A stretch of 64,000 nucleotides of DNA from Brumimicrobium mesophilum (GTDB lineage: Bacteria; Bacteroidota; Bacteroidia; Flavobacteriales_D; Crocinitomicaceae), in assembly GCF_003025005.1 (NCBI RefSeq), contig NZ_PVSS01000008.1, positions 62,001 through 126,000 on the forward strand. Reading direction: 5' to 3'. The position numbers and the translations under genes are program-made. Positions 7,042 through 17,214 of this stretch are shown here, piece by piece (position 1 is the stretch's first letter; every line of letters starts with the position of its first letter). A model generated the notes under the pieces. That model had not been told where the DNA came from and did no database searches. It worked only from the letters and a program-made list of their open reading frames with translations.

Positions 7042-8889
7042 ATGAAAAAGATTTACTTCTTAGGGTTGATTTTAGGGACGGCGTCTCTATCTTTCGCTCA
7101 AAGCACACACTCTGTGTTAAATAAAAAAGTGGCTACAAATCACAAGGTAATTACAAATCCTACAGCATTTACAACTAAAGCTCCTGGAGTTGCAGTTTGG
7201 CAAGACAATTTTGACGACCCAACTACTTGGACAATGGACAATGCAGGTCAAACAGCTCCAAACACAGGTTGGACAATTGACCCTACTTATGATGGATGGT
7301 ATAGTGGTGGTGCACCAGTTGCTGCTCCAGGTGGAGGAAACTTCGCTGAGTTAGGAAACGGTGTTTCTTCATCAGCAGCTACAGCACAAATGGTAACTTA
7401 CACAATGACAACTGCATCTCCGATTGACGTTGTTGCTGCTGGAGGTTCTCAGGATATCGTTTTAGAGTTTTTACAATATGGAGCTTTATTTAATGATGTT
7501 CAAGAGTTTCAAATTTCAACTGATGGAACAACTTTCACAACAGTTGGAGATAACTCAAATTTTGACCCATTAACATCTACAGGTGGTAGTGCTTATGACA
7601 ACCCAACTCAAGTAAGAGTTAACTTATCGCAGTATCTTTCTGCAACTCCAACTCAAGTTTGGATTAGATTTTCTTGGACTTCAAGATTCCCTACAGAAAC
7701 TGCAAATGGAGCATGGATTACTTACGGATGGATGATTGACAATGTTGCTTTAGTAACTCTTCCAGATAATGACATTTCTACTAGTGAATCATACTTTGGA
7801 TCAAATGGTGTTGCATACTACCAAATTCCTCAAGCTCAAATAGCTCCTATCGACTTTACAGTTAATGTAACTAACGAAGGAACTTCTGATCAGACAGGTG
7901 TTGCTTTACTTGCTACTGAAGCAGGTTCTGGTTACAATGGTACTTCTGGTGGTGATCCAGTTTTAGTTGGATCAACAGATTCATTAATCGTTTCTACTTC
8001 TTTCACTCCATCAGGACTTGGAAACTACGAAGTTGAATTCGAAATCGAAGCAGATTTAGTTGATGATGTACCAGCAAACAATATGATTCCTTCTTACAAA
8101 TTTAGAGTAGTAGAAGATTTATATGCTAGAGATTCATCTTCACAAGCTGAAAACGGTGTTCTTTACAACCAATTAAGACAAGACGGTCTTGTTGGAGCAG
8201 CTAACATTATCAAAAAATATGCTGTTGCTTATGACGTATATGCTGATGCTGATGTAACTGCAATCGACTTCCAATTCGGTAATCAAATTGAAGATGGTGC
8301 ACAAGTTGTTGCTGCAATTTATGAGTCTGATTTAGAAACACAAGTTGGAGAAACTGAATTCTATACAGTTTCTGCAGGTGATGAAATGACTTACCACACA
8401 TTGGCATTCCCAACACCTGTAACTTTGGATGCTAATACAACTTATTATGCAACAGTTGAAATGTTCTCTACAGTAATGTCAATTGCTGCTGCTGGTTCTG
8501 CTCCAGCTGGAACATCTATCTTCCAATTAGTTGATGATTCATGGTCAAATCTTGCACCAACGAACCGTACTTTTGTAATTCGTATGAACTTTGATCCATC
8601 TGTTGGATTAGAAGACAATGAGTTATCAAACATCAACGTTTCTCAAAACTATCCTAACCCATTTGCTAACGAAACTACTGTTGAGTTCAGCTTGAAAGAA
8701 ACTGCTGAAGTTTCTTACTCAGTTGTTGATTTAACTGGTAAAGTTGTTGCAGATGTTAACGAAGGAAACACTTTTGCTGGTGAGCATTCAATCACTATCG
8801 ATGGTTCTTCATTCGCTAATGGAGTTTATTACTTAAACATTACAGCTGGTGAATCTACTGTTACACGTAAAATCGTTGTAAACAAGTAA
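7042..8889 (+). CDS. Secreted T9SS cargo protein with type A C-terminal sorting domain
   Basis: This 615-residue exported protein starts with a clear signal peptide (MKKIYFLGLILG to SFAQ). The ATG at 7042 is chosen over an upstream in-frame ATG at 7018 because the signal peptide begins here and 7018 lies inside the promoter box. The N-terminal half (to ~240) looks like a jelly-roll/MAM-like beta domain. Later regions look like CARDB-like and lectin-like beta domains. The last ~80 residues are a type A sorting tail (NYPNPFANETTVEF, then GEHSITIDGSSFANGVYYL, ending KIVVNK), recognised by the type IX system. Codon choice is strongly uniform and the gene is followed by a strong terminator, so high expression is likely. 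It has no enzymatic motif. It could be an adhesin or surface-layer-like protein. Confidence 0.85.
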   Translation: MKKIYFLGLILGTASLSFAQSTHSVLNKKVATNHKVITNPTAFTTKAPGVAVWQDNFDDPTTWTMDNAGQTAPNTGWTIDPTYDGWYSGGAPVAAPGGGNFAELGNGVSSSAATAQMVTYTMTTASPIDVVAAGGSQDIVLEFLQYGALFNDVQEFQISTDGTTFTTVGDNSNFDPLTSTGGSAYDNPTQVRVNLSQYLSATPTQVWIRFSWTSRFPTETANGAWITYGWMIDNVALVTLPDNDISTSESYFGSNGVAYYQIPQAQIAPIDFTVNVTNEGTSDQTGVALLATEAGSGYNGTSGGDPVLVGSTDSLIVSTSFTPSGLGNYEVEFEIEADLVDDVPANNMIPSYKFRVVEDLYARDSSSQAENGVLYNQLRQDGLVGAANIIKKYAVAYDVYADADVTAIDFQFGNQIEDGAQVVAAIYESDLETQVGETEFYTVSAGDEMTYHTLAFPTPVTLDANTTYYATVEMFSTVMSIAAAGSAPAGTSIFQLVDDSWSNLAPTNRTFVIRMNFDPSVGLEDNELSNINVSQNYPNPFANETTVEFSLKETAEVSYSVVDLTGKVVADVNEGNTFAGEHSITIDGSSFANGVYYLNITAGESTVTRKIVVNK

Positions 8890-8912
8890 TCATCATCTTA
8901 AAGCATACAAAG

Positions 8913-8943
8913 AAGAGGAGTCGAATGGCTCCTCTTTTTTTTT
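8913..8943 (+). terminator. Intrinsic terminator of the T9SS cargo gene
   Basis: AAGAGGAG (8913-8920) pairs perfectly with CTCCTCTT (8929-8936) across an 8-base loop, and a T-run continues to 8943. It lies 23 bases after the stop codon. Confidence 0.9.
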
Positions 8944-9016
8944 AACCATTATTTAAGAAAACCTTCTGAAACAATTATACAACTGTGGCGTTATATAGAT
9001 GTTAGGTTTCATAAGT

Positions 9017-9066
9017 AGTAGTGTTAAACAATAGAGAAGGCTCCCGCTTTCTCTATTGTTGTTTTT
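9017..9066 (+). ncRNA. Candidate small RNA, tandem copy 1
   Basis: The predicted transcript starts about 7 bases after a TAGGTTTC box (9003-9010) and ends after the T-run that follows the hairpin at 9027-9060. Its stem is 15 bp (AACAATAGAGAAGGC with GCTTTCTCTATTGTT, one G-U pair) with a UCCC tetraloop. The -33 position reads CTG rather than TTG. Alternatively this is only one of a set of reinforcing terminators. Confidence 0.4.
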
Positions 9067-9166
9067 AATGGAATATTTATAATTAAATTTCTATTAACAT
9101 TCCTTCACAGAACCAAGACAACATATACAAAATTGGTGTGTTATAAAGGCGTAAGGTTTCATAAGT

Positions 9167-9216
9167 AGTAGTGTTAAACAATAGAGAAGGCTCCCGCTTT
9201 CTCTATTGTTGTTTTT
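9167..9216 (+). ncRNA. Candidate small RNA, tandem copy 2
   Basis: This copy has the identical 34-base hairpin (9177-9210) and T-run. The promoter-like boxes are TTG at 9133-9135 and AAGGTTTC at 9153-9160, separated by 17 bases. The -7 box is weaker here than in copies 1 and 3. Confidence 0.4.
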
Positions 9217-9317
9217 AATGGAATTTTTATAATGAAATTTCTTTTTAACACTCCTTCACAGAACCAAGACAACATATACAAAATTGGTGTGTTATAAAGA
9301 CGTTAGGTTTCATAAGT

Positions 9318-9367
9318 AGTAGTGTTAAACAATAGAGAAGGCTCCCGCTTTCTCTATTGTTGTTTTT
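9318..9367 (+). ncRNA. Candidate small RNA, tandem copy 3
   Basis: The hairpin is at 9328-9361 followed by five T. The promoter-like boxes TTG (9284-9286) and TAGGTTTC (9304-9311) are 17 bases apart, matching the flavobacterial TTG/TAnnTTTG layout except for the last base. This is the best-formed of the copies. Confidence 0.42.
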
Positions 9368-9494
9368 AATGGAATATTTACAATTAAATTTCTATTAACA
9401 TTCCTTCACAAACTCATTACAACAAAAGAAAATTTCATAAGTTATAATATCAAGTAATAATAGTTAGATTTCATAAGTTTTAGTTAGACTAATT

Positions 9495-9525
9495 AGGAAG
9501 GGGCGAAAGTTCCTTCCTATTTTTA
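9495..9525 (+). terminator. Hairpin of the diverged fourth unit
   Basis: AGGAAGGGG (9495-9503) pairs with TTCCTTCCT (9510-9518), including two G-U pairs, around a CGAAAG loop. ATTTTTATT follows. TAGATTTC lies upstream at 9465-9472, as in the other units, so this may be a distant fourth copy. Confidence 0.55.
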
Positions 9526-9676
9526 TTCCAAAGAGATATCACTTCTAAGATTAATAACTCCAACAATAAAAACCTTATTTTTAGCTAAATAAAAATGTAT
9601 AGGTTATCCCAACTTTGTATTTATTATACTTGAAAAAATTTTAGAAAATAAGAATTGGTAAGTGTGAAGTTAAAAA

Positions 9677-10018
9677 TTACTCTTCCTTCCTCTTATTAGG
9701 AATGATAACCCATACAGCGACCAGTAACGCTCCAACTAAAAGAAGGTACTTAGCATTTGTAATGCCTAAAGAACTTAATGAAAACCCGAAGATTATTGAG
9801 AGTATACTGGTGAGCAATAATAGAGCCGACGCATTAAAAGAATCCGATTTCAGCAAATCAATGATATGAATAATTACACCTAGTCCGCCAAATACAAGGG
9901 CAATTAAAGGAAAAATTGGATTATTGCTGATTTCTCCAACATCAAATGCAATCAGAATAAAAGGAAGCAACATTGCCAATAAAGCAACTACAATTGAATA
10001 TGTTCCCCATTTTGTCAT
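9677..10018 (-). CDS. Small four-helix integral membrane protein of unknown function
   Basis: This 113-residue protein consists almost entirely of four hydrophobic segments (about residues 6-26, 34-55, 63-82 and 88-107) joined by short loops, and ends in NKRKEE. The positive C-terminus suggests it stays in the cytoplasm. No domain is recognised. It stands alone between the hairpin array and a divergent T9SS hydrolase. It reads as a genuine gene because its helices are regular and the codon use resembles the neighbours. Confidence 0.7.
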   Translation of the reverse strand: MTKWGTYSIVVALLAMLLPFILIAFDVGEISNNPIFPLIALVFGGLGVIIHIIDLLKSDSFNASALLLLTSILSIIFGFSLSSLGITNAKYLLLVGALLVAVWVIIPNKRKEE

Positions 10019-10226
10019 AAATCAAAAGTACCATATTTACTGAATTGATACTAGAAAATTTTAATAAGTGCTTTAAAAAAATTGGTTTCACAAAATTTCA
10101 CCTTAATCAACCAGTGAATTTTCTAAAAAGTTTAAAGAACCAAAATTAACAAGGTAAATTCAAGAGCTTAAATTAAAATTAGCTGACCCTTTGGTTATCA
10201 TCCACTTATTATCTAATTTCGGTAAC

Positions 10227-13126: not shown

Positions 13127-13154
13127 GGAAGTTCTTTTAATGAATGCAAGTAAT

Positions 13155-13260
13155 ACTTATAAAGAAAGGTGGAGGGACAGGCCCTACGAAACCTTGGCAA
13201 CCTTTTAATACGTTAATTCCGGTGCCAATTCCTTCCCCAATAGATTCGGGATTGATAAGT
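13155..13260 (+). ncRNA. SAM-I (S-box) riboswitch aptamer
   Basis: The conserved S-box core is plainly present: GGTGGAGGGACAGGCCCTACGAAACC, given here by its parts GGAGGGAC, GGCCC and GAAACC (13171-13192), then TGGCAACC (13195-13202), and GGTGCCAATTCC (13221-13232). Helix P1 is closed by ACTTAT (13155-13160) with ATAAGT (13255-13260). The aptamer binds S-adenosylmethionine. It stands directly upstream of a methionine synthase gene pair, as expected for feedback control of methionine synthesis. Confidence 0.95.
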
Positions 13261-13267
13261 AGAAAAC

Positions 13268-13290: not shown

Positions 13291-13392
13291 CCTATTTTCT
13301 TTTTTTTATTACTCAATCACGTAAGCTTTTCGTCATTATTTTGATTGAAAGGGCAGTTTTTGTATTCATTCTCGAGCATAAAAAAAAACAAA

Positions 13393-14397
13393 ATGAAGAA
13401 AAGAGATATACGAGAATTGGTGAAAGAAAGAACATTAGTTCTTGACGGTGCAATGGGAACAATGATTCAACAATACGATCTAGAGGAACAAGATTTTCGT
13501 AAAGGGTGGTTTGAAGACCATGAAAAACCTTTGAAGGGAAATAATGATTTATTATCTCTAACTAGACCAGAAATAATCAAGGCAATTCACGGAAAATACT
13601 ATGCTGCTGGAGCAGATATTTGTGAGACAAATACATTCTCAGGAACTACGGTTGCACAAGCAGATTATGATTTAGAAAGTGCTGTTTACGACATTAATTT
13701 TCTGTCCGCTAAATTAGCCAAAGAAGTAGCGGACGAATTCACTCTTAAAGAACCTAATAAACCACGATATGTTGCAGGAGCAATTGGTCCAACCAATAGA
13801 ACTTGTTCGATTTCTCCAGATGTAAACGACCCTGCTTTTAGAGCAATTACTTTCGATGAATTGGTTGAAGCGTATAGCCAACAAGTTAAAGCACTTATCG
13901 AGGGTGGAGTAGATTTATTATTAGTCGAAACTATTTTTGACACCCTAAATGCTAAAGCAGCTCTTTATGCAATTGATGTTGTTCAAGAAGAAATGAAAAC
14001 TAAATTACCGATTATGATATCAGGTACTATTACTGATGCATCCGGAAGGACTTTAACTGGTCAAACAACAGAAGCTTTTTTGATTTCTATTTCTCACCTC
14101 CCCGTATTTAGTGTTGGATTAAATTGCGCTTTGGGTGCAAAAGAACTGAGACAATATTTAAAAATCATGGATGAAAAAGCTCCGTTTTATGTATCAGCGC
14201 ATCCAAATGCAGGATTACCAAACGAATTTGGTGAATACGAGGAAACACCAGAAATTATGGGCCAACAAATTGAAGAATTCTTAAAAGAAGGGTTAGTCAA
14301 CATTATTGGTGGTTGTTGTGGAACTACACCCGCTCACATAAGAGTGATTTCAGACCTAGTGAAGAAATACGAGGTGAGGAAAGTGGAGTTAGAATAA
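13393..14397 (+). CDS. metH: Methionine synthase, homocysteine-binding module (MetH N-terminal part)
   Basis: This 334-residue protein is the zinc/homocysteine-activating module of cobalamin-dependent methionine synthase. It would work with the product of the next gene to methylate homocysteine from methyltetrahydrofolate. Visible motifs are [11 protein letters not shown] at the N-terminus, ETNTFSGT, and the three zinc cysteines Cys245 (GLNCALG), Cys308 and Cys309 ([10 protein letters not shown]). The ATG at 13393 is chosen over an in-frame ATG at 13345 because family members start with the [18 protein letters not shown] segment. The gene ends where the first domain of full-length MetH ends. 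It is controlled by the upstream SAM riboswitch. Confidence 0.93.
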
Positions 14398-14431: not shown

Positions 14432-14526
14432 TGTAAAAAGTTCCAATTCAAATTGAAGCTTTATTAAATCTTCATCTTTTGAAGACCAGCATTAAAGATT
14501 ATTTCCAAATCAACAACATTAGAAAA

Positions 14527-17214
14527 ATGAACAAAAAGAACATACTTCCTCCTTTAAAATTATCAGGATTAGAACCTTTGATAGTTACTCCAGAATCGAA
14601 CTTTATCAATGTTGGTGAACGAACGAATATGACGGGTTCAAAAAAGTTCTTGCGTTTAATCAAAGAAGATAAATACGAAGAAGCTTTAGAAGTTGCGTTG
14701 GATCAAGTTCAAGGTGGAGCACAAATCATTGATGTTAACATGGATGAAGGAATGCTCGATGGGAAGGCTGCAATGATTCGTTTTTTAAATTTAATAGCTT
14801 CCGAACCAGATATTGCAAGAGTTCCAATCATGGTTGATTCTTCAAAATGGGAAATTATTGAAGCAGGTTTAAAATGTATTCAAGGAAAAGGTGTTGTGAA
14901 TTCTATTTCATTGAAAGATGGAGAAGCGCTATTCATTGAAAGAGCTAAGATTGTTCGCAGACTAGGTGCTGCAGTAATCGTAATGGCATTTGATGAAGTT
15001 GGTCAAGCAGATAATTACGAACGCAGAATTGAAATTTGTAAACGCTCTTACGACATATTGGTGGACAAGGTTAATTTCCCACCTCAAGACATCATTTTTG
15101 ACCCAAACATTTTCCCTGTTGCAACGGGAATGGAAGAACATCGAAATAATGCTTTGGACTTTTTTAACGCAACAGAGTGGATTCGAAAAAATCTACCTGG
15201 AGCTAGTGTATCAGGAGGAGTTTCAAACGTTTCCTTTTCTTTCCGTGGAAATGATGCCGTCCGTGAAGCTATGCATTCCGCTTTTTTATACCATGCCATT
15301 AAACGAGGTATGAATATGGGTATTGTAAACCCTGCTTTATTAGGAGTTTATGATGATATCGACAAAGATTTATTGGAACGTGTTGAAGATGTTTTGTTGA
15401 ATAAAAGAGACGACGCAACAGAAAGATTACTTGATTTTGCAGAAAATTTCTCAGGAGAAAGAAAAGAGAGAGTTGTGGATTTATCTTGGCGAGAACAACC
15501 TGTTCAAGGGAGATTAGCCCATGCTTTAGTAAAAGGAATTACGGAATATATTGATGCGGATACGGAAGAATGTCGACTTCAATACAAACGACCAATAGAA
15601 GTAATTGAAGGTCCATTAATGGATGGGATGAACATCGTTGGTGACTTATTTGGAAGTGGTAAAATGTTCTTACCACAAGTGGTAAAATCTGCTCGTGTTA
15701 TGAAAAAAGCAGTTGCATATTTATTGCCATTCATTGAAGACGATAAACAAGAAGACGACAAACCCAATGGTAAAATCGTGATGGCAACTGTAAAAGGAGA
15801 CGTTCATGACATCGGAAAAAACATTGTTGGAGTTGTTTTAGGCTGTAATAACTATGATGTAATCGATCTAGGGGTAATGGTTCCTGCTGCAAAAATCATT
15901 CAAACAGCAATCGAAGAAAATGCCGATGCCATCGGGTTAAGTGGTTTAATTACACCTTCACTTGACGAAATGGTAACTGTTGCCAAAGAAATGGAACGTG
16001 CAAATATTAGCATTCCATTGTTGATTGGTGGCGCGACAACATCTCGTGTACATACAGCCGTTAAAATTGAACAATTTTATACGAAGAATCAAACAGTTCA
16101 TATTTTAGATGCTTCTCGTTCTGTTACCGCAGTTGAAAGTTTACTCGGAAACAAACGTGATGTTTTTGTAGCAAACATTAAAGAAGAATACAAAAAATTA
16201 CGTGATCATCATGAGAAGAATAATGCTCGCAAAACGTATATTTCCTTGGAGGAGGCTCGAACAAATAAATTTCCAATTGAATGGAAACAAGAAGATATTA
16301 AAACACCGAACCAATTGGGTGTCTATGACTTCCAAGACTACAGCATTGAAGATATTTTAGAATACACAGATTGGACACCTTTCTTCCAAGCTTGGGAATT
16401 GGCAGGAAGATATCCAGCAATTTTAGAAGACGAAATAGTTGGGGAAGCCGCAACGAAATTATTTCAGGATGCAAAGGAAATGCTGAAGAAAATCGTAGAC
16501 GAAAAATGGTTGACAGCCAAAGGAGTTTACGGATTATTTCCAGCCAACTCTATCAACAATGACGATATAGAAATCTACAAAGACGAAAGCAGAACAGAAG
16601 TTTTATACACACAACGTTCGATGCGCTCACAATTAAAGAAATCAAAAAAAGCACATAATATTGCATTAGCAGATTTCATCGCACCAAAAGAAAGTGGAAT
16701 AAAAGATTATATCGGAGGATTTGTTGTGACTTCAGGAATTGGAATAGATGAACACATCAAGCGTTTTAAAGATGACCATGATGATTACAACGCAATTCTA
16801 TTACAAGCATTGGCTGATCGTTTAGCGGAATCATTTGCGGAATTACTCCATGCTAGAGTTAGAAAGGAATTTTGGGGTTATTCTCCAGATGAAGAATTAG
16901 ACAATGAATCATTAATCAGAGAAAAATACAAAGGAATTCGACCAGCACCAGGTTACCCTGCTTGTCCAGACCATACCGAAAAGCCAGGATTATTCGAAAT
17001 TCTAAATGCAACAGAGCACACAACAGTAGAGCTAACAGAGCACATGGCAATGTATCCAACAGCGGCAGTAGCAGGCTGGTATTTTGGCCATCCGGAAGCG
17101 AAGTATTTTGGAGTTGGGAGAATCACAAAAGAACAAGTTGAAAGTTTGGCAGAACGCAAGGGAAAAAGCTTTGAAGAAATGGAAAAATGGTTGGGATCTA
17201 ACTTGAGTTATTAG
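14527..17214 (+). CDS. metH: Methionine synthase, folate-, cobalamin- and SAM-binding modules (MetH C-terminal part)
   Basis: This 895-residue protein carries the rest of MetH. Residues about 20-290 are the pterin-binding (methyl-THF) barrel ([20 protein letters not shown]). Then come the four-helix cap and the B12-binding Rossmann domain with the axial-ligand motif DVHDIG (His427) and GGATTSR. The C-terminal ~330 residues are the SAM-dependent reactivation domain ([22 protein letters not shown]). The start at 14527 (MNKKNILPP) fits the domain edge; an upstream in-frame ATG at 14479 adds an unlikely extension. It lies 129 bases after the N-terminal module with no terminator between. Together the two genes give a complete split MetH. 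Confidence 0.94.

Follow-up and report, generated by a model that had tools for sequence, protein, structure and literature searches.

The 64,000-nucleotide stretch of the Brumimicrobium mesophilum genome that we analysed (hereafter the window) contains four tandem units, which we consider, with a probability of roughly 0.62, to be separate genes of a multi-copy family of trans-acting small RNAs of the Crocinitomicaceae. The family consists of a leader, GTTAG(G/T)TTTCATAAGTAGTAGT, followed by a covarying terminator hairpin; the family itself, the covariation, the promoter motifs and the genus-wide synteny are all results of computation. A preliminary description had read the units as a candidate small-RNA array, and the comparative data (a conserved unit, covariation, multi-copy spread and terminators) support that reading well. 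Among 4227 Rfam families none reaches its gathering score in the window except the SAM riboswitch, and at E ≤ 10 only weak, unrelated names appear. We found nothing in the open PMC literature for TTTCATAAGTAGTAG, nor for a small RNA of Crocinitomicaceae, and none of the papers listed by a broader search deals with these genera; as far as these searches go, the family is undescribed. To our knowledge, small-RNA regulation has been little mapped outside Proteobacteria and Firmicutes, and few small-RNA families with a defined seed are known in Flavobacteriales. The sequence alone yields a family for which a covariance model is available, whose leader is defined, and which follows a rule: a constant leader is joined to an exchangeable class of promoter. 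Small-RNA action where ribosomes ignore Shine-Dalgarno sequences thereby becomes testable in marine bacteria that are in culture.

Direct repeats of 177 nt begin at positions 8970, 9120 and 9271 (spacing 150 and 151), and Tandem Repeats Finder reports 8990-9410 with a period of 151, 2.8 copies and a score of 770. Three units of ~150 bp and a diverged fourth had been proposed, and the hairpins were recovered exactly where they had been placed, at 9027-9060, 9177-9210 and 9328-9361, each with its T-run; GTTTTT lies directly 3′ of each. All promoters and RNAs of the array are predicted on the plus strand, the promoters from sequence motifs, and the RNAs from repeats, folding, the terminator search and the covariance model R1. 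Predicted sRNA 1 (9001-9066) consists of the 5′ leader GTTAGGTTTCATAAGTAGTAGTGTTA, the first hairpin and its T-run, behind an ECF-like promoter at 8967-8992 (TGAAAC-N16-CGTT) with an expected +1 at ~9001. Predicted sRNAs 2 (9151-9216) and 3 (9302-9367) contain the second and third hairpins, behind ECF-like promoters with AAC-N16-TGTT at 9120-9142 and 9271-9293. The predicted, diverged sRNA 4 (9452-9525) has a related leader, GTTAGATTTCATAAGTTTTAG, from 9463 and a different hairpin at 9494-9519; its start at ~9452 is derived from the position of an ECF-like promoter at 9421-9444 (AAC-N16-AGTTA), and the unit matches R1 with 53.3 bits (E 1.1e-8). The RNAs from these units are predicted to be ~66 nt long, rather than the ~50 nt estimated earlier.

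As had been noted from the sequence, the hairpin and the box are conserved while the linkers drift. Unit-to-unit identity is 100% in the hairpin, 96-100% in the RNA leader, 65-97% in the promoter stretch and 57-89% in the trailing linker, where the promoter and linker figures are lowered by one-base shifts because the units were compared without gaps. The stem, described as a perfect 15-bp helix, is present, and consists of 14 Watson-Crick pairs and one G·U (93% complementary). Folding energies are -20.9 kcal/mol for each of units 1-3 (z = -6.1) and -18.8 kcal/mol for unit 4 (z = -4.35), whose leader contains a small extra helix. Positions 8800-10100 hold five terminator-like sites, compared to 0.5 (sd 0.6) in shuffles, namely the four unit hairpins and a minus-strand site at 8936-8913.

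The gene upstream of the array encodes a T9SS-cargo protein (Por_Secre_tail). The inverted repeat at ~8913-8942 (GAGGAG...CTCCTC), which the terminator search called on the minus strand only, looks like that gene's own terminator when it is read on the plus strand, where a long T-run follows. The terminator-type hairpins, the tandem duplication and the site behind a T9SS-cargo gene could suggest that the units are DNA elements only, either redundant terminators or a mobile repeat of the REP/MITE type. We regard this as very improbable. The T9SS gene's own terminator-like repeat argues against redundant terminators, and it and the single copies in the same genome, on C10 and C1, tell against the possibility raised in the preliminary description that the units only terminate the T9SS gene. 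These single copies, and the promoter motifs upstream of most copies, also speak against DNA elements in general. Moreover, recently transposed repeats would share their stem, whereas the stems of this family vary yet stay paired, and the leader is kept.

Units were likewise found close to T9SS-cargo genes in the relatives. In all nine genus relatives (G001-G009), units are situated ~0.1-0.6 kb behind T9SS-cargo homologues, as determined by tblastn against the fetched loci; these homologues are 38-55% identical over longer alignments, and 28% identical in G009. On the other side of the array, the gene at 9677-10018 is convergent to it and encodes 113 amino acids, with no match in Pfam or NCBIfam. 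By tblastn, this gene is also found near units in G001-G004. In G005 a further copy adjoins a similar gene end (L324, a reading by eye).

A search with a single unit found matches at E ≤ 0.01 in 38 of 99 genomes (B. mesophilum itself included), among them all nine genus relatives. Model R1 detects the family at E ≤ 0.001 in 108 of 150 Crocinitomicaceae genomes, in 82 of the 114 good genomes, in 18 of 24 genera and in 10 of 10 genus genomes. At this threshold B. mesophilum has seven matches and genus genomes have four to nine each. An order-wide sample gave matches at 1e-5 in 49 of 249 genomes, of which 48 belong to Crocinitomicaceae and one is a MAG (G088, 71% complete), and a phylum-wide sample gave matches at 1e-4 in 2 of 395, namely B. 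mesophilum and G598; both searches use strict filters, by which weak matches are lost. The units of G088 lie on a 5.3-kb contig (L025, G088:C127) of a MAG assigned to another family, and perhaps reflect a misbinned contig. The G598 match (L318) was considered as a distant homologue in another family and rejected, as it is a hairpin beside a seemingly chance AGGTTTCATAA. In Crocinitomicaceae genomes without a good match, a search for a diverged RNA found TTTCATAAGTAG 28 times in 15 genomes, compared to 40 times for the backward control.

A scan of an 84,980-species collection with the pattern GTTAGNTTTCATAAGTAGTAG returned 90 stretches. The titles of 80 of these name Brumimicrobium, Fluviicola, Lishizhenia, Crocinitomicaceae or unspecific Flavobacteriales/Bacteroidetes MAGs, with, as exceptions by label only, one Cryomorphaceae MAG, three Chitinophaga pinensis MAGs and one Glaciecola chromosome. 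The last record (L112, CP034120.1), titled as a complete chromosome of Glaciecola amylolytica, carries a unit of Fluviicola type at 7334, preceded by a sigma-54-like site, and is perhaps a mixed assembly or mislabelled. Three pattern matches in Flavobacteriaceae (L104, L114 and L115), which affect one gene that is similar in all three, were rejected as units, since they are the reversed start of a gene for a large exported protein. They were not counted as evidence because we estimate that chance alone would give the pattern ~0.5 times in 257 Gb. As a separate observation, the exported-protein start region in these Maribacter and other Flavobacteriaceae sequences, CTACTACTTATGAAAACTAAC, is an exact complement of the T-type leader. 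Viral contigs, searched for phage carriage, had no instance of the exact pattern.

The fetched loci contained 131 units (two with three mismatches were dropped), which gave 123 non-redundant ones; these 123 still include L104, L114 and L115, which were dropped from later counts. For covariation analysis, we aligned the 79 of the 123 units that have a 4-nt loop and distinct stems. Two-sided changes are seen at every one of the 14 stem pairs. A check proposed with the preliminary description, namely a search of related genomes and a test of stem covariation, came out in favour of the family on both counts. There are 335 double-change cells versus 88 in shuffled alignments, and the covariation score is 0.857 versus 0.360 for shuffled alignments and 0.19-0.32 when the partner is slid by 1-3 columns. 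Stem cells are paired in 96.9% of cases versus 73.4% when shuffled, a percentage that is inflated because a hairpin finder chose the stem-loop of each unit; more weight attaches to the double changes, which were counted at a fixed register. The 5′ arm is for the most part rich in purines (GGAGAG-like), and its 3′ partner in pyrimidines, even though the pairs covary (alignment A1, columns 43-56 and 61-74). At least five T nucleotides occur within 10 nt after the stem in 100 of the 123 units. The C-rich loop to which attention had been drawn is recurrent (GCCC in 41 of the 123 units, GCCA in 30, ACCC in 13) but not universal (GCTA in seven); UCCC, as in the window, occurs in three, and we found nothing that favours the loop as a pairing site.

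Because the scan pattern fixes the leader, we judged leader conservation on copies that lack the pattern. R1 yields 148 matches over 94 loci, including 11 rows without the scan pattern, of which 10 are distinct. Among these 10 copies, UUUCAUAA is kept in nine, UUUCAUAAGUAGUAG in six and GUUAG in two. The B. mesophilum copy C1:223055 reads GTTAAATTTGTATAAGTAGTAGTAGGTTAGG and has lost UUUCAU, and its transcript may start inside the core. Of 120 units, 113 retain TAGG in an unpaired position; it belongs to the core in G-type copies and to the linker in 74 of 77 T-type copies.

This conservation pattern bears on an alternative in which the main role of the RNAs is that of decoys for a protein: their GUUAGGU/GUAGUAG repeats would hold an RRM_1 (RbpB-like) protein off its mRNAs, and base-pairing would be secondary. 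Each of the 10 genus genomes has one RRM_1 gene, and the B. mesophilum protein (C34:221265) has a confirmed 70-aa domain and, counted from the first Met, 153 aa with a basic tail. RbpB of Bacteroides thetaiotaomicron prefers GUAGGAUA, as stated in PMC12119571 (citing Adams 2021), and this sequence resembles the GUUAGGU/GUAGUAG part of the leader. The unpaired TAGG would suit a decoy, as would multi-copy arrays, which lend themselves to titration, and C1:223055, the sole copy that loses UUUCAU, keeps AGUAGUAGUAGGUUAGG. However, the diverged copies retain UUUCAUAA (9 of 10) better than GUUAG (2 of 10), which would be needless for a pure decoy of the UAGG type, and we consider the decoy explanation unlikely. 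A more limited role, in which the RRM_1 protein, present once in each genus genome, binds the GUUAGGU/GUAGUAG part of trans-acting RNAs, is a tentative suggestion.

We scored promoter motifs in the 118 units that have 70 nt upstream, with expectations from 200 shuffles. A sigma-54 site, TGG[CT]A[CTA]-N5-TTG, precedes 64 of the 118 units (0.09 expected), an ECF-like arrangement, AAC-N15-19-GTTA, precedes 22 (3.8 expected), and the sigma-A box TAnnTTTG precedes 11 (3.1 expected, and at most 10 in any of the 200 shuffles). One unit is counted twice, and 22 fit none of the three motifs. Thus, judged by motif only, most copies have their own promoter upstream. In a set of 35 units, mostly from the genus, a stricter version of the ECF motif, AAC-N16-xGTT[AT], occurs in 20 (0.33 expected, and at most three in 200 shuffles) and is lacking in 15. 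In Flavobacterium psychrophilum, a CGT box at -10 is described as a probable ECF promoter (SM6; PMC9723704). Predicted starts were set 13 nt downstream of the G in TTG for sigma-54 and 5 nt downstream of the box for sigma-A, whose box is given as -12 to -5 (PMC9723704). The sigma-54 starts then fall 1-16 nt before GTTAG (32 of 64 at -13), and those of sigma-A precede it by 0-20 nt, 5 of 11 coinciding exactly with its G; these ranges are partly set by the counting window, because starts were counted between -25 and +3 only, but the clustering within that window is not. Transcription of the units, and the use of these promoters, is a prediction. In each of several Fluviicola-type arrays, one copy (L025:234, L086, L097:1073, L099 and L120:5813) has a GTATTACATATAACAATAC-like palindrome, perhaps an operator, upstream in place of the sigma-54 site (by eye).

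In the preliminary description, TTG (CTG in the first unit) and a TAGGTTTC box 17 bases downstream had been taken as the promoter. Both strings are present, but we do not regard them as a promoter, and TAGGTTTC falls inside the predicted RNA. If TTG-N17-TAGGTTTC were a sigma-A promoter, a transcript of ~50 nt would start from ATAAGTAG. TAGGTTTC is indeed one base off TAnnTTTG, C1:223055 has TAAATTTG at the position of the box, and 24 of 118 units have a TTG 16-20 nt ahead of the core TA, compared to 12.3 (sd 3.2) when shuffled. Yet this excess is modest and may stem from the TTG in sigma-54 sites, and the last base of the box is C instead of G in 9 of the 10 copies that the scan pattern had not selected. 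The sigma-54 sites of 64 of the 118 copies put +1 upstream of the TAGGTTTC box, and in L004, L106 and like copies a full TAnnTTTG places +1 on the G of GTTAG. We therefore consider this layout quite improbable. Since the same leader stands behind sigma-54, sigma-A and ECF-like promoters, and the predicted sigma-54 and sigma-A starts lie at or upstream of GTTAG, TAGGTTTC is most likely inside the RNA.

In the explanation we propose, that of trans-acting small RNAs, each unit would give a ~66-nt transcript with an unpaired 5′ leader, GUUAGGUUUCAUAAGUAGUAGUGUUA, followed by a terminator hairpin whose sequence would be free to vary provided that pairing is kept. The array in the window would be under ECF-like promoters, and other copies under sigma-54, sigma-A or ECF-like ones. 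Because one leader is shared by copies whose promoters differ, several signals would feed one RNA output. The leader would pair via UUUCAUAAGUAG with translation starts of type CUACUUAUGAAA, which favour mRNAs for secreted proteins and lipoproteins, and this pairing would block initiation, as FopS does in Bacteroides. We can extend this to a family-wide ‘start-codon mimic’ RNA, with a leader antisense to CUUAUGAAA under sigma-54, ECF or sigma-A control, by which different envelope or surface signals would, through one shared RNA, lower the synthesis of exported (T9SS, lipoprotein) proteins with RRM_1 as partner, in hosts that make no use of Shine-Dalgarno pairing; in this full form the proposal is speculative, and we hold it to be rather doubtful.

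Several known systems share features with such an RNA. The Qrr small RNAs of Vibrio comprise several near-identical copies with sigma-54 promoters, under quorum-sensing control by LuxO. The sigma-54-driven, near-identical copies are a point of likeness, but the hosts are unrelated, and the promoter class varies between the Crocinitomicaceae copies. The LhrC family of Listeria has tandem copies, C-rich loops and a link to cell-envelope stress, and its C-rich stretches pair with Shine-Dalgarno regions. Tandem copies and C-rich loops are shared, whereas the conserved part of the Crocinitomicaceae RNA is the leader, not the loop. FopS of B. thetaiotaomicron is described as a set of 14 paralogues of ~65-70 nt, in which a terminator follows a single-stranded 5′ seed, and as blocking susC translation by binding beside the start codon, an effect counteracted by the RRM-1 protein RbpB (PMC11697453). 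As described there, FopS and GibS resemble the Crocinitomicaceae family in being multi-copy, in their length, in having a conserved single-stranded 5′ seed followed by a Rho-independent terminator, and in the presence of an RRM-1 protein in the host. However, FopS is reported to have canonical sigma-ABfr promoters and to be conserved within Bacteroidaceae, while the Crocinitomicaceae promoters are of the sigma-54, ECF-like and sigma-A classes, and the pairing of FopS with the susC start was tested by experiment according to that source, while that of the Crocinitomicaceae RNA is predicted from sequence. No FopS name is found among the Rfam matches; FopS and the family in the window are compared here by their descriptions. 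The comparison raises the question of whether FopS-like start-codon seeds have arisen more than once in Bacteroidota. Rfp11 and Rfp36 of F. psychrophilum are listed as putative small RNAs with ECF-type (SM6) and sigma-54 (SM4) promoters, respectively (PMC9723704). They share these promoter classes, in a flavobacterium, and are likened here by description; outside Crocinitomicaceae, R1 matched one genome of the order-wide sample.

Start-codon pairing is, chiefly because of the analogy to FopS, the likeliest mode of action in our analysis, although we put its chance at somewhat under even. CUUAUGAAA, a sequence context of start codons, is the complement of UUUCAUAAG. Among 711 called starts in 844 kb of the B. 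mesophilum genome, 25 form duplexes of ≤ -14 kcal/mol versus 11.4 for shuffled leaders. We set this excess aside because shuffles in which UUUCAU is kept reach equal numbers in the same genome (27.2 starts at ≤ -14 kcal/mol versus 25 real ones, and thus no excess). Two carriers of the RNA, G007 and G018, gave the same picture, while G061, from another family and without a match in the single-unit search, exceeds free shuffles to a similar or greater degree (T-type leader, 18 versus 7.0), and G013, with a weak match only, has little. All that the duplex test shows is a general fit of UUUCAU to start codons.

Near-perfect sites are a stricter measure. ACTACTTATGAAAMCTAA, with up to two mismatches, has 56 matches in the 10 genus genomes, of which 39 are the units and 17 lie outside them. 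These 17 are not above the backward control (36), and they exceed each of two flank-scrambled patterns (9 and 9), which are unmatched for dinucleotides. Nine of the 17 coincide with the first ATG of a long ORF, where the encoded N-termini all read as signal peptides or lipoproteins, compared to four starts, two of them exported, among the 18 sites of the two flank-scrambled controls (Fisher 0.062 for starts and 0.0098 for exported starts); signal-peptide assignments here and below were made by a crude rule or by eye. The N-termini at C56:234092 of B. mesophilum and at L338 of G004 are alike enough to look orthologous.

Across 60 family genomes, CTACTTATGAAARD has 36 matches, 30 of them with loci, which by rule include 13 starts, 11 of them exported. 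The control TCATTCATGAAARD has 77 matches, and its 30 with loci include three starts, one exported (Fisher by rule, 0.0037 for starts and 0.0012 for exported). This control matches the positional expectation at starts (2.45e-4 and 2.44e-4), but among genes with signal peptides the expectation is higher for CTACTT (4.1e-4) than for the control (2.7e-4). Adjustment by eye, with L378 added as a start, L384 as exported, and L370-L372 taken as units (L372 provisionally), gives 14 starts and 13 exported of 27 for CTACTTATGAAARD, a count that favours our own reading because the TCATTCATGAAARD control was kept without such adjustment. CTACTTATGAAA start sites number five in the 22 family genomes with no or a weak R1 match and nine in the 38 with a good match; since they are equally common in genomes without the RNA, we treat targeting as hypothetical. 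Candidate ‘sponge’ RNAs in G002 and G004 (L325 and L326) were rejected, as the antisense stretch lies inside an ORF that reads as conserved in both.

Elsewhere in the window, the SAM riboswitch (RF00162) lies at 13154-13261 on the plus strand (80.7 bits), upstream of ORFs at 13345-14397 and 14479-17214, which look like two parts of methionine synthase.
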